DNA of 64,000 nucleotides from a bacterium (GTDB lineage: Bacteria; Bdellovibrionota_G; JALEGL01): contig JALEGL010000005.1 in NCBI GenBank assembly GCA_022763185.1, positions 124,001-188,000 on the forward strand, read 5' to 3'. The translations under genes were made by a program, and so were the position numbers. How positions within the stretch are numbered: position 1 is the first letter of the stretch; every line of letters begins with the position of its first letter. Shown here in pieces: positions 20,845 through 44,292 of this stretch. The notes below the pieces were generated by a model that was given only the letters and a program-made list of their open reading frames with translations, had not been told where the DNA came from and made no database searches.

Positions 20845-20880
20845 AAAAAAGGGGACACGCACCTACGGTTCATGTCCCCT
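20845..20880 (-). terminator. Terminator of the ATP synthase operon
   Basis: GGGGACA (20851-20857) pairs with TGTCCCC (20873-20879), extended by one further pair. In the minus direction the stem is followed by six T residues. It lies 30 bp beyond the duplicated atpC end. Confidence 0.85.
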
Positions 20881-20910
20881 TCTTACTCTTTTCTGTTAGT
20901 TAAATTACAA

Positions 20911-20961
20911 TTTTAACAAAGCTTCCAGCCAATCTCGCTCTTGATATAACCCTTCACGCTC
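20911..20961 (-). pseudogene. Duplicate of the atpC 3' end
   Basis: These 51 bp are identical to 21072-21122, the last 17 sense codons before Leu-stop in atpC. In this copy the codons that follow are TTG TAA instead of CTC TGA, so it also encodes the same C-terminus, ending LEALLKL-stop. It has no start and is a fragment. It sits nearer the operon terminator, so it may be the original gene end, displaced by the hairpin segment at 20962-21071. Confidence 0.9.
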
Positions 20962-21071
20962 ATCTGGCCTTTTAAGGGAAAATCACTTTTCCCTCACCAA
21001 CAAAAAACGTCGTTTTTGTTGCTTCACCCTTTGTGCAGAACTTTATATAAAATAAAGTTCTGACTTCAGAG
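20962..21071. repeat. Three-hairpin segment between the two atpC ends
   Basis: Three consecutive inverted repeats fill this 110-bp segment: AGGGAAAA/TTTTCCCT at 20975-20994, CAACAAAAA/TTTTTGTTG at 20998-21021 and CAGAACTTTAT/ATAAAGTTCTG at 21036-21062. It is flanked by the 51-bp direct repeat. It has no coding potential and looks like a small palindromic insertion. Confidence 0.8.
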
Positions 21072-21467
21072 TTTTAACAAAGCTTCCAGCCAATCTCGCT
21101 CTTGATATAACCCTTCACGCTCTTCTATGCCCACTTTTTCTGAAACCAGTTTGGCTTCTATGTCTTTGTGCTCTGCTTGAACTTGATCAAGGTCAATGTC
21201 TTTTTTGAATTTGGCGTCATCGGCCAACAAGCGAATGTGATTTTGGTTCACTTGCAAAAAACCAGCTTTCACCGCAACTTTATGAATTTGGCCTGCATGT
21301 TGATACTGTACCAAACCAGTTAAAAGTGTACTCAACAGCTCTGTATGGCTTTCTAAGACTTCCAGTTCACCTTTGTGACCGGGAATACTCACTTTTACAC
21401 AGCGAGTATTCACCAAACTCTCAGCCGGTGTTACAATTTCAAGGGCTATTGCTTCTTCATGTGCCAT
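21066..21467 (-). CDS. atpC: ATP synthase F1 epsilon subunit
   Basis: A 133-residue epsilon subunit with the N-terminal beta-sandwich (LEIVTPAESLVNTRCVKVSIPGH, GELEVLESHTELLSTL, KVAVKAGFLQV) and a C-terminal helical hairpin ending LEALLKL. It links rotation of the c-ring to the catalytic head. The last 17 codons and the stop context occur again at 20911-20961, so the present 3' end may have been rebuilt after an insertion. It follows atpD by 5 bp. Confidence 0.95.
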   Translation of the reverse strand: MAHEEAIALEIVTPAESLVNTRCVKVSIPGHKGELEVLESHTELLSTLLTGLVQYQHAGQIHKVAVKAGFLQVNQNHIRLLADDAKFKKDIDLDQVQAEHKDIEAKLVSEKVGIEEREGLYQERDWLEALLKL

Positions 21468-37414: not shown

Positions 37415-37902
37415 TGTGAAACCTTTATCTCTCTGAATTTTTGAGCCAACAGTATGGCTGCGTGGCAGGCTTCTTCACCTTTACGCCCATGCTCGCCATT
37501 CACTCTTGCTTGTGCTTGTGCCATATTTTCTACACTGAGGATGGCATTTCCAACCGGCAAAGCGTACTCTCTAGCAACTTGATCAATTGCAGGAAAAACA
37601 GTGTCACAAATATGATCGTAATGAGAGGTTTCTCCTCGAATGACACAACCGGTCACCACAACGGCATCATAGTGTTTATGTCTGGCAATAAACGCTAACA
37701 TCTGCGGAATCTCTAAAGTGCCAGTAACCTCGTACTCATCAACAAAAGACGCCGCATGCAAAGCTTTTGTAGTTTTTTTTACTTGCTCACTGACCTGTTT
37801 AAGTAAATCTTGATGCCAAGAGGCTTTAATCAATGCTACTGCATAAGGGCTTTGTTTTTTATCCAAAGCAGCACTATATTTATCTTGAGTTTTCATGGCC
37901 AA
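37411..37902 (-). CDS. ribH: 6,7-dimethyl-8-ribityllumazine synthase
   Basis: A 163-residue lumazine synthase, the penultimate enzyme of riboflavin synthesis. ASFVDEYEVTGTLEIPQML, VVVTGCVIRGETSHYDHIC (catalytic His in HYDH) and VGNAILSVENMAQAQAR match the family, although GNAILSVEN replaces the usual G-x-LT-x-EN. It starts 8 bp after ribBA. Confidence 0.96.
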   Translation of the reverse strand: MAMKTQDKYSAALDKKQSPYAVALIKASWHQDLLKQVSEQVKKTTKALHAASFVDEYEVTGTLEIPQMLAFIARHKHYDAVVVTGCVIRGETSHYDHICDTVFPAIDQVAREYALPVGNAILSVENMAQAQARVNGEHGRKGEEACHAAILLAQKFREIKVSQ

Positions 37903-42244: not shown

Positions 42245-42258
42245 TTATTTCCTTTCTT

Positions 42259-42308
42259 AAGGGGAAATATTGGCCCCTTCTTTGATCAAGACGTCGGTCT
42301 TGATCAAA
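42259..42308. repeat. Hairpin module 1 upstream of glyA
   Basis: Two adjacent inverted repeats: AAGGGG/CCCCTT at 42259-42279 and a 12-bp perfect arm pair TTTGATCAAGAC/GTCTTGATCAAA at 42281-42308. The same two-hairpin order recurs at 42481-42529. Confidence 0.8.
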
Positions 42309-42312
42309 TTTA

Positions 42313-42365
42313 AAGCTATACTTGTGAAGAGCAAGGCTTTGCCTTGCGATGACCTAGTATAACTT
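42313..42365. repeat. Nested palindrome between rpiB and glyA
   Basis: Outer arms AAGCTATACT (42313-42322) and AGTATAACTT (42356-42365) match at 9 of 10 positions. The core is GCAAGGC-TTT-GCCTTGC (42331-42347), followed by GATG as in the element at 39149. A further hairpin, GCCGC-TTTTA-GCGGC, follows at 42368-42382. Confidence 0.72.
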
Positions 42366-42387
42366 ATGCCGCTTTTAGCGGCCAGCA

Positions 42388-42469
42388 CACCCAGGTCGAA
42401 TTCGGCACAAGGCCTCTCCTCCACCTTTCTCTTAACACCCACTTAAACTGTGAATCTTCTCCACGCGTC
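42388..42469 (-). pseudogene. Duplicate of the rpiB 3' end
   Basis: 82 bp identical to 42537-42618. On the minus strand it encodes the last 11 rpiB residues, VEKIHSLSGC and stop preceded by Arg-Arg context partly deleted (GAAGGCAG joins directly to GACGCG), plus 46 bp after the stop. It has no start codon. Confidence 0.9.
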
Positions 42470-42480
42470 CTGCCTTCTTC

Positions 42481-42529
42481 AAGGGGGGATCTTCCCCCCT
42501 TCTTTGATCAAGACGCGGTCTTGATCAAA
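42481..42529. repeat. Hairpin module 2 between the two rpiB ends
   Basis: AAGGGGGG/CCCCCCTT at 42481-42501 and TTTGATCAAGAC/GTCTTGATCAAA at 42503-42529, each perfect, repeat module 1 at 42259-42308. The segment between the duplicated rpiB ends (42470-42536) contains little else. Confidence 0.82.
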
Positions 42530-42536
42530 TTCATCC

Positions 42537-42618
42537 CACCCAGGTCGAATTCGGCACAAGGCCTCTCCTCCACCTTTCTCTTAACACCCACTTAAACTGT
42601 GAATCTTCTCCACGCGTC
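42537..42618. repeat. Second copy of the 82-bp direct repeat, across the rpiB stop
   Basis: It overlaps the last codons and stop of rpiB and 44 bp beyond, and is identical to 42388-42469. It contains a 26-nt GC-rich module (42545-42570) which has a diverged third copy at 44795-44820. Confidence 0.9.
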
Positions 42619-43054
42619 TTTGGTGTCTGCCGCCTTCAAAGTCGGTGTTTAAAAATATTTTGAGCAGGTTTTTTGCGGTTGCTTGATCGATCACTCTTGA
42701 TCCAAAACACACTACATTGGCGTCATTGTGTTGACGGCTCATCTGGGTTTCAAACTCAGACTGAACCAATGCTGCGCGAATACCTTTGTACTTGTTTGCC
42801 GCAATACTTATTCCAATGCCTGTGCCACAAAGCAATACACCAACATGTTGAGGGTTTTTGATCACTTCTTTACACACTTTTTGAGCATAATCAGGGTAAT
42901 CCACAGAACTTTCATCATGGGTCCCCATATCCACTAGCTGATCTGGTGCGTAGTGCAAGTCATGCTTAAGATAGTCAATAAGCCCTTTTTTTAATTCAAA
43001 GGCCGCATGATCACCGCCAATATAAATTTTTTTAGGCTGTATTTTCATAGACAT
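42581..43054 (-). CDS. rpiB: Ribose-5-phosphate isomerase B
   Basis: A 157-residue RpiB/LacAB family isomerase of the pentose phosphate pathway. KIYIGGDHAAFELKKGLIDYL, HVGVLLCGTGIGISIAANKYKGIRAAL (catalytic Cys in LLCGTG) and RQHNDANVVCFGSRVI are conserved. The ATG at 43054 overlaps the fabF stop (TGATG); another ATG lies at 43048. The 3' end is duplicated downstream with a hairpin segment between. Confidence 0.95.
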   Translation of the reverse strand: MSMKIQPKKIYIGGDHAAFELKKGLIDYLKHDLHYAPDQLVDMGTHDESSVDYPDYAQKVCKEVIKNPQHVGVLLCGTGIGISIAANKYKGIRAALVQSEFETQMSRQHNDANVVCFGSRVIDQATAKNLLKIFLNTDFEGGRHQRRVEKIHSLSGC

Positions 43055-44292
43055 CAAGAAAACTTTTTAAAAATCAAACAACCGTTGGTTCCACCAAAAC
43101 CAAAAGAATTACTCAACACGGCTTCAACTTTATGCTGTTGTGCTTCATTAGGAACATAATCCAAATCACACGCTGGATCTGGTGTTGTGTAATTGATGGT
43201 TGGAGGCACAAATTGATGATGAATACTTAACACACTGTACACAGCCTCTACACCACCTGCTGCACCCAACAAGTGACCTGTCATAGACTTGGTTGAGCTT
43301 ACTTTAAGTTGCTTGGCATGATCTTTAAATAAGGCCTTAATAGCCGCGGTTTCTCCAGCATCATTGAGTTGGGTTGAGGTTCCATGGGCATTGATATAAT
43401 CTAAATCATCCGTATTCATCTGTGCATCAGTCAATGCTGCTTGCATACAGCGAATTGCGCCTTCTCCATCAGGGGAAGGCGCGGTCATATGGTGTGCATC
43501 TGCACTCATGCCATAGCCCGCAAGTTCTGCATAAATCCTTGCACCTCTTTTTTGAGCGTGCTCTAAGCTTTCTAAAACAACAATACCTGCACCTTCACCC
43601 ATAACAAAACCATCTCTGTCTAAATCAAATGGACGACTGGCAAGTTCTGGTTCATCGTTACGTTTAGATAATGCGCGCATGGCACCAAAACCGCCAACTG
43701 CTAAAGGCGATATGGTTGATTCTGTACCACCAGCAATCATCACATCGGCGTCACCACGTTCTATTATTTTTGCAGCATCGCCAATATTATGGGTGCCCGT
43801 TGTACATGCTGTTACGGTACAAGCATTGGGGCCCTTTGCACCCAAAGCAATAGAAATCTGACCTGGAGCCAAGTTGGCAATAATTTTTGGAATAAAAAAT
43901 GGAGAAACTCTCCTAGGTCCTTTTTCCAAAATGGTTTTATGGGTTTCTTCAATGGTGCCGATACCCCCTAAACCTGCTCCAACCATAACACCCACACGCT
44001 CTGCATTAGCATCATTAATCTCTAGGCCAGAGTCTTGATGAGCCATCAAAGCTGCTGTTAATGAATACTGAATAAACAGATCCATTTGCTTGATGCTTTT
44101 TGGATCTATACTTTGCGTTGGATCATAACCTTTAACTTCAGCTGCAATTTGGGTGGTGTATTGCTCACAGTCAAAGCGAGTAATTTTTCCAACACCACTT
44201 TTACCCGATTGAATGGCTAACAGGTTCTCTTCAACATTTAAGCCCAGAGGGGTAATCGTACCCAGACCTGTTACAACGACTCTTTTTTTCAT
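43054..44292 (-). CDS. fabF: 3-oxoacyl-ACP synthase II
   Basis: Condensing enzyme of 412 residues for fatty acid elongation. It has [14 protein letters not shown] at the N-terminus, the nucleophile context [14 protein letters not shown], and both catalytic His motifs, [11 protein letters not shown] and [16 protein letters not shown]. The ATG at 44292 is preferred, with GGAGAG upstream; the longer frame to 44358 lacks family similarity. It follows acpP by 127 bp and is coupled to rpiB. Confidence 0.97.

Follow-up and report, generated by a model that had tools for sequence, protein, structure and literature searches.

The gene for the ATP synthase epsilon subunit, atpC, lies on the minus strand of the window, the 64,000-nt stretch of bacterial DNA analyzed here, and its 3' end is present twice (Table 1). 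The direct repeat first described as 51 bp is real and extends over 55 nt (20911–20965 and 21072–21126, 54/55 positions identical, spacing 161). The gene-side copy, T1, is the final ~55 nt of atpC. The two copies use different final codons for the same terminus, as the initial annotation had pointed out. atpC ends in ...EALLKL with CTC TGA, the outer copy, T2, continues with TTG TAA, and both encode ...LLKL-stop. The 106 nt between the copies (110 nt if the 51-nt copies are used) consist of three hairpins and a short closing stem. This insert folds with −31.0 kcal/mol on the plus strand and −35.7 kcal/mol on the minus strand, with z scores of −5.2 and −5.1, and 0 of 200 shuffled sequences were equally stable. 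The insert is non-coding, and no integrase was noticed among the neighboring open reading frames, in agreement with the original description of a hairpin-only cargo. Both the element and the duplication are absent in relatives: in G001 and G003, atpC has one end only and the hairpin segment is missing, so the double end is not carried by all relatives. A search with AtpC gave no named close relative. An assembly artefact is unlikely because many loci that differ in sequence share this architecture, as do independently assembled genomes.

Table 1. Features of the atpC and rpiB loci in the window, and the loci with long flanking duplications. R1, covariance model of the element core; T, gene-end copy; E, hairpin element.
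Feature	Position or locus	Strand	Basis or remark
atpC, ATP synthase epsilon subunit, 133 aa	21066..21467	-	PF02823, E-value 1.3e-18
T1, gene-side copy of duplicated atpC 3' end	21072..21126	-	repeat alignment
E element between both repeats	20966..21071	-	H3, linker, H2, H1, tail on minus strand
hairpin H3 (CAGAACTTTATTTTATATAAAGTTCTG)	21036..21062	-	UUUAU-type loop
linker CACAAAGGGTGA	21024..21035	-	
hairpin H2 (CAACAAAAACGACGTTTTTTGTTG)	20998..21021	-	hypervariable yet paired in all copies
hairpin H1 (GGGAAAA-GTGA-TTTTCCC)	20976..20993	-	GNRA-type loop
T2, second atpC 3' end copy	20911..20965	-	begins directly after element's 3' end
tail-like stretch past T2	20876..20904	-	TTTAACTAACAGAAAAGAGTAAGAAGGGG vs element-tail consensus TTTAATAAACAGAAGAGCGAAGCGGG
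rpiB, upstream gene of the window's second T-E-T-E locus	42581..43057	-	PF02502
87-nt repeat, first copy	42532..42618	-	rpiB 3' end, leader, element H3/linker
first E element, rpiB locus, short form	42476..42558	-	R1 match
87-nt repeat, second copy	42383..42469	-	98%
second E element, rpiB locus, long form with nested hairpin F	42254..42382	-	R1 match 42254-42330
PilZ gene, first 69 nt from ATG duplicated	L028		exact 5' end
atpC 3' end	L029		
tRNA-Glu 3' end	L032		
beta-lactamase family gene	L036		
thioesterase	L037		
C9 locus	L041		
etfA 3' end	L042		
B12-binding protein	L046		
rpiB 3' end	L050		
aldehyde dehydrogenase 3' end	L058		in relative G003
duplication locus	L059		in relative G003

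A family of multi-hairpin elements

Searching the insert against the rest of the genome returned further copies. A covariance model, R1, was built on the H2–H1 core. It matches the atpC element at 21051–20970 with 89.2 bits and identified 37 places at an E-value below 0.02. The significant matches number ~35 in this genome of 2.25 Mb, and an order-level relative has two. The atpC insert belongs to a family of multi-hairpin DNA elements not described before, here called E, whose copies are dispersed through the genome. The oriented copies share a layout of hairpin H3 (loop UUUAU or similar), a linker (variants include CGCAAAGGGUGA, CACGGGGAUGA, and GACCUGGGUGGGAUGA), a long hairpin H2, then GAGGG or GAAGGGG before hairpin H1 with its GNRA-type loop, and the tail UUAAUAAACAG(A), to which some copies add a AGAGCGAAGCGGGA extension. 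Their 5' ends vary from ~16 to 68 nt upstream of the linker, and no terminal inverted repeats common to the copies were seen. The copies have unrelated flanks. One other window match (37712–37803, 20.7 bits, several mispairs) is probably due to chance.

The sequence of H2 is highly divergent between loci, private to many of them, and nearly always paired. The H1 stem is also strongly variable and keeps its pairing. Among 37 distinct sequences, 95.6% of the stem cells are paired with 172 double-sided changes; 18 of the 19 pairs have such a change, and covariation is 0.655 compared to 0.232 after shuffling, counts that lean towards the model because the alignment was fitted to it. E thus has the covariation of paired positions by which structured families are recognized. 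GU pairs are 4.5% of the stem pairs, and the stems change almost only by Watson–Crick double changes. The linker and the H1 loop also vary together. CGC occurs with GCG in 15 copies and CAC with GTG in 6, against 1 exception (Fisher p 9e-5, shared ancestry uncorrected and two copies counted twice). The exception, L032, holds both motifs. This pattern suggests a pseudoknot in which the linker probably pairs with the H1 loop; in the atpC element, a CAC/GTG copy, the partners may be the linker CAC and the loop GTG.

In view of these features, E could mainly act as a structured RNA in 3' and 5' untranslated regions, with duplications that are passive and homogenized by gene conversion between the closely spaced repeats. 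The conserved linker and tail, the GNRA-type H1 loops, the covarying linker–loop pairing (Fisher p ~1e-4, shared ancestry uncorrected), the position of some copies close before start codons, and vertical persistence at the trmL locus described below point this way. We consider it improbable because GU pairs at 4.5% are rare for a selected RNA, the neighboring genes are functionally unrelated, and the attachment of duplications to so many copies would be left unexplained.

Several other observations concern these repeats. Some E copies contain a smaller nested hairpin, F (GC(C)TTTGCATAAG-stem-CTAAA or CTTTATG). It occupies three different positions, in H1 (L002, L041, L053, and L057), in the linker (L015, L042, L050, and L055), and in an H2 arm (L060), as if it were itself mobile or a structural module. 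Two E copies ~515 nt apart (C3:27411 and C3:27926; L049 and L052) have the same H2 stem and surround what reads as the genes for ribosomal proteins L21 and L27. Four contig ends (C1, C5, C6, and C13; L044, L047, L054, and L057) lie in or within ~60 nt of E copies, so the copies probably break the assembly. A third hairpin repeat, G, adjoins tRNA genes and ends in a degenerate copy of a tRNA 3' end (L043, 1377–1457 on the minus strand; L048, ~1590–1700; L060, 1036–1228); one G copy matches Rfam AaHKsRNA22 over its full length with 33.8 bits, which is less than the cutoff of 39.8.

Bacterial genomes commonly contain small intergenic hairpin repeats. To our knowledge, none is repeatedly bracketed by long copies of the neighboring gene's end. 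The repeats ERIC, Correia, CIR, BOX, and RPE include MITE-like and other types, some near gene 3' ends (PMC10969869). E is like these repeats (PMC10969869) in being ~100 nt long, non-coding, and palindrome-rich, with dozens of copies in intergenic and transcribed regions. It is unlike them in that its copies have no evident inverted repeats at their ends, no short target duplication of fixed length (the flanking repeats are 21–91 nt and variable), and three hairpins plus a linker with an H2 private to many loci; no parent insertion sequence was found here (among transposases, Y1 was searched). REP/REPIN sequences are likewise hairpin units next to genes, and the genome has three single Y1 (RAYT-like) transposase genes (L073, C1:16947; L074, C5:1289; L075, C4:58182). 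These were rejected as the mobilizer since each is flanked by its own, different REP hairpin (GGGGACAACTACC..., GTACCCAAAGGTATG...) and not by E, and REP/RAYT insertion proceeds without the larger target duplications that accompany E. A window hairpin at 20846–20884 (GGGGACA...TGTCCCC) resembles the REP of the first Y1 gene (L073). In the features tested, E differs from REP/RAYT elements, MITEs, and site-specific integrative elements, and no Rfam family scored above its gathering score.

Gene-end duplications and second elements

The 220 nt before the core were aligned with the 220 nt after it for 36 copies. Long flanking duplications (scores of 21 or more, lengths 21–91 nt) were found at 11 of the 36, and the chance expectation is ~0.65 copies (1.8% of 3000 random window positions). 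Table 1 lists these loci, the protein genes named by Pfam. The repeat sequence is different at each locus, and at the protein-gene loci the gene-attached copy always carries the complete end. The junction on the 3' side is regular. In ten of the eleven loci T2 starts 4–7, 15–24, or 30–32 nt after the core, and these three offsets correspond to three forms of the E 3' end; in the exception, L032, the insert is longer and T2 starts 75 nt after the core. The two L046 repeats have nine mismatches over 48 positions. Seven of these mismatches fall on third codon positions, a pattern that suggests coding evolution of both copies and a later replacement of one allele.

It is well supported that E is real, structured, and dispersed, and that its copies recurrently carry long flanking gene-end duplications. 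Since copies repeatedly lie between two copies of a neighboring gene's end, the atpC scar reflects a recurring process and not an accident at a single gene. The initial annotation had read the locus as a gene-end duplication scar around either a relic or a minimal non-autonomous element. The scar and the probably non-autonomous character of the element hold, with many copies flanked in this way, and the dozens of copies argue against a relic confined to one gene.

The same annotation had likened the repeats to the attL/attR sites of a site-specific integrase. Tyrosine-recombinase elements and casposons do resemble E in having a gene-end or tRNA-end duplication around inserted DNA, and the gene-3'-end and tRNA-3'-end repeats look like att sites. 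We nevertheless regard remains of a tyrosine-recombinase integrative element as very improbable because the repeats differ at every locus and share no att core; unlike integrative elements, E has no integrase within it or in the adjacent open reading frames. Casposons use a tRNA 3' end, and their duplications are ~15 bp (PMC9939771), unlike those at E.

Second elements or their remnants are present at most of the duplication loci. At etfA and rpiB a second element follows the second repeat in register; it shares the private H2 stem of its locus and has an extra nested hairpin, an arrangement that looks like tandem duplication. Both elements at rpiB have the same H2 stem, and the second lies just upstream of the next open reading frame (ATG ~42244), glyA-like by reading. 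At the thioesterase locus (L037) a part of the second element is preserved, as far as mid-H2, and a weak 5' match was seen at the C9 locus (L041). The PilZ and atpC loci have a tail-like stretch past the second repeat that scores above all control windows. At atpC the score of this stretch was reached by 0 of 38 control windows, and the stretch is a possible remnant of a lost second element. We did not detect a second-element trace at L032, L036, L046, or L058.

The trmL locus of Zetaproteobacteria

A gapped exact core pattern scanned over 84,980 species genomes gave ten matches, which include one contig of G003 (Deltaproteobacteria bacterium HKST-UBA01) and four zetaproteobacterial genomes. 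Matches in Clostridium, Aeromonas, Lentisphaeria, Clostridiales, and Ardenticatenaceae had no model match and were attributed to chance, and the viral contigs searched for E gave no match. The four zetaproteobacterial matches all lie beside the start of a SpoU-family methyltransferase gene (Pfam), read as trmL. The hairpins of a related element are present in all four genomes (weakly in L115, E-value 0.003), and the first 69–77 nt of trmL are duplicated in a T-E-T arrangement. When searched, these genomes had the element at trmL only, and among 398 Pseudomonadota genomes searched it was found only in these four. An unrelated 5.2-Mb genome (G250; L085–L114) has at least 41 copies, 85–90% identical, of a multi-hairpin repeat with terminal hairpins CTAGCAGG...CCTGCTAG that is like E in architecture only. 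This family has no long flanking repeats and served as a negative control.

Most of the 30 trmL loci of the class and L126 have neither the element nor the duplication. L154 has a variant element with a duplication. In L142 the element stands alone with no second repeat, and in L133 only the 5' half is present. Carriers are clustered in the TrmL tree, yet four changes are needed. The repeats are 92–100% identical within a genome and 78–86% between genomes, so the duplication or its homogenization is younger than the shared element. The 5' end of the zetaproteobacterial element is the reverse complement of the 10–12 nt where T2 starts, and this holds at a shifted site (L132). The same comparison in the window's genome gave complementarity no better than mismatched pairs. 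The genes beyond the element differ between sister zetaproteobacteria and the L133/L134 similarity stops inside the element, and for these reasons the locus looks breakage-prone. In the sister pairs L153/L154 and L133/L134, synteny beside trmL changes at or near the element, and neither pair could serve as a clean empty site because the downstream neighbors differ.

Origin of the flanking duplications

We tentatively favor a local tandem duplication that arises when synthesis switches template at the hairpins and that is followed by hairpin loss, an explanation to which we give a little less than an even chance. E adjoins gene ends, and the block of gene end plus element would readily be duplicated in tandem. 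After copying the E hairpins, repair or replication synthesis would resume 20–100 nt upstream inside the neighboring gene end. The second gene-end copy would then be placed after the E 3' end to give T-E-T, sometimes T-E-T-E, and slippage would remove hairpins of the downstream element, in many cases down to a tail or a 5' stub. Since the copy beside the gene body is complete, the gene remains functional. We infer both template switching as the agent and the order of element first and duplication second.

The 11 flanked copies against ~0.65 expected and the three T2 offsets at ten loci are consistent with this explanation. It is also favored by the second elements with the same H2 at etfA and rpiB, the remnants at the thioesterase, C9, atpC, and PilZ loci, the trmL repeats that are younger than the shared element, the trmL variants with a missing second repeat (L142) or a 5' half only (L133), and the complementarity of the zetaproteobacterial element 5' end to the T2 start. 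Quasipalindrome-associated template-switch mutation accounts for stems that change fast, match perfectly, and contain few GU pairs (PMC8794818); the Watson–Crick double changes and the 4.5% GU pairs of E are as expected if template switching maintains its hairpins. The known process corrects or creates hairpins, and a 20–100-nt gene-end duplication at a 3' boundary was not found among its described outcomes. Against tandem duplication stand the four loci without a second-element trace, the occurrence of perfect repeats, the lack of general junction microhomology, and the absence of 5'-end complementarity in the window's genome. Concerted evolution of one old T-E-T could also yield the trmL pattern. 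Most copies with visible duplications belong to less diverged subclasses, which would be expected of repeats made by insertion itself, and the position of T2 at the E 3' boundary nearly always is explained more directly by insertion.

Insertion with an unusually long target duplication is a close rival of template-switch duplication. E would be a non-autonomous mobile element inserted by an enzyme via widely staggered strand cuts that leave target-site duplications of ~20–100 nt, which we regard as possible but on balance doubtful. A dispersed family with unrelated flanks and a T2 flush with the E 3' end would follow directly. The genes are always left intact, at 3' ends, at the exact 5' end of the PilZ gene, and at a tRNA 3' end, and insertions at gene ends would survive because the long duplication restores the gene. 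G001 and G003 without the element or the second atpC end, and most relatives at trmL, would be empty sites. Insertion does not account for the lack of a constant 5' end, for the downstream elements that repeat the same H2 in register at two loci, or for the remnants at others. No mobilizing enzyme for E was found when reverse transcriptase and Y1 transposase were searched in the genome. Retroposition by target-primed reverse transcription was rejected because the genome, which is 97% complete, gave no match to the reverse transcriptase domain RVT_1. Each of the three Y1 transposase genes is bounded by distinct hairpins that are not those of E, and IS200/IS605-type transposases make no larger target duplications (PMC2817692), which argues against insertion via Y1. 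Literature on long target duplications in bacteria contained nothing found to match E. In a bolder reading, which appears unlikely although we take it seriously, E would form a new class of mobile hairpin element shared by two distant lineages of bacteria. It would insert with variable 20–100-nt target duplications, and could for this reason land in gene ends without breaking them, by a route that involves neither reverse transcriptase nor a known Y1 mechanism.

The trmL locus, where related species have and lack the element, makes the question of insertion versus duplication testable. If insertion makes the duplications, E would represent an undescribed mode of transposition that spares the target gene. 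Hairpin-driven tandem duplication is usually studied with artificial constructs. If template switching makes the duplications, the E loci would be natural records of this process.
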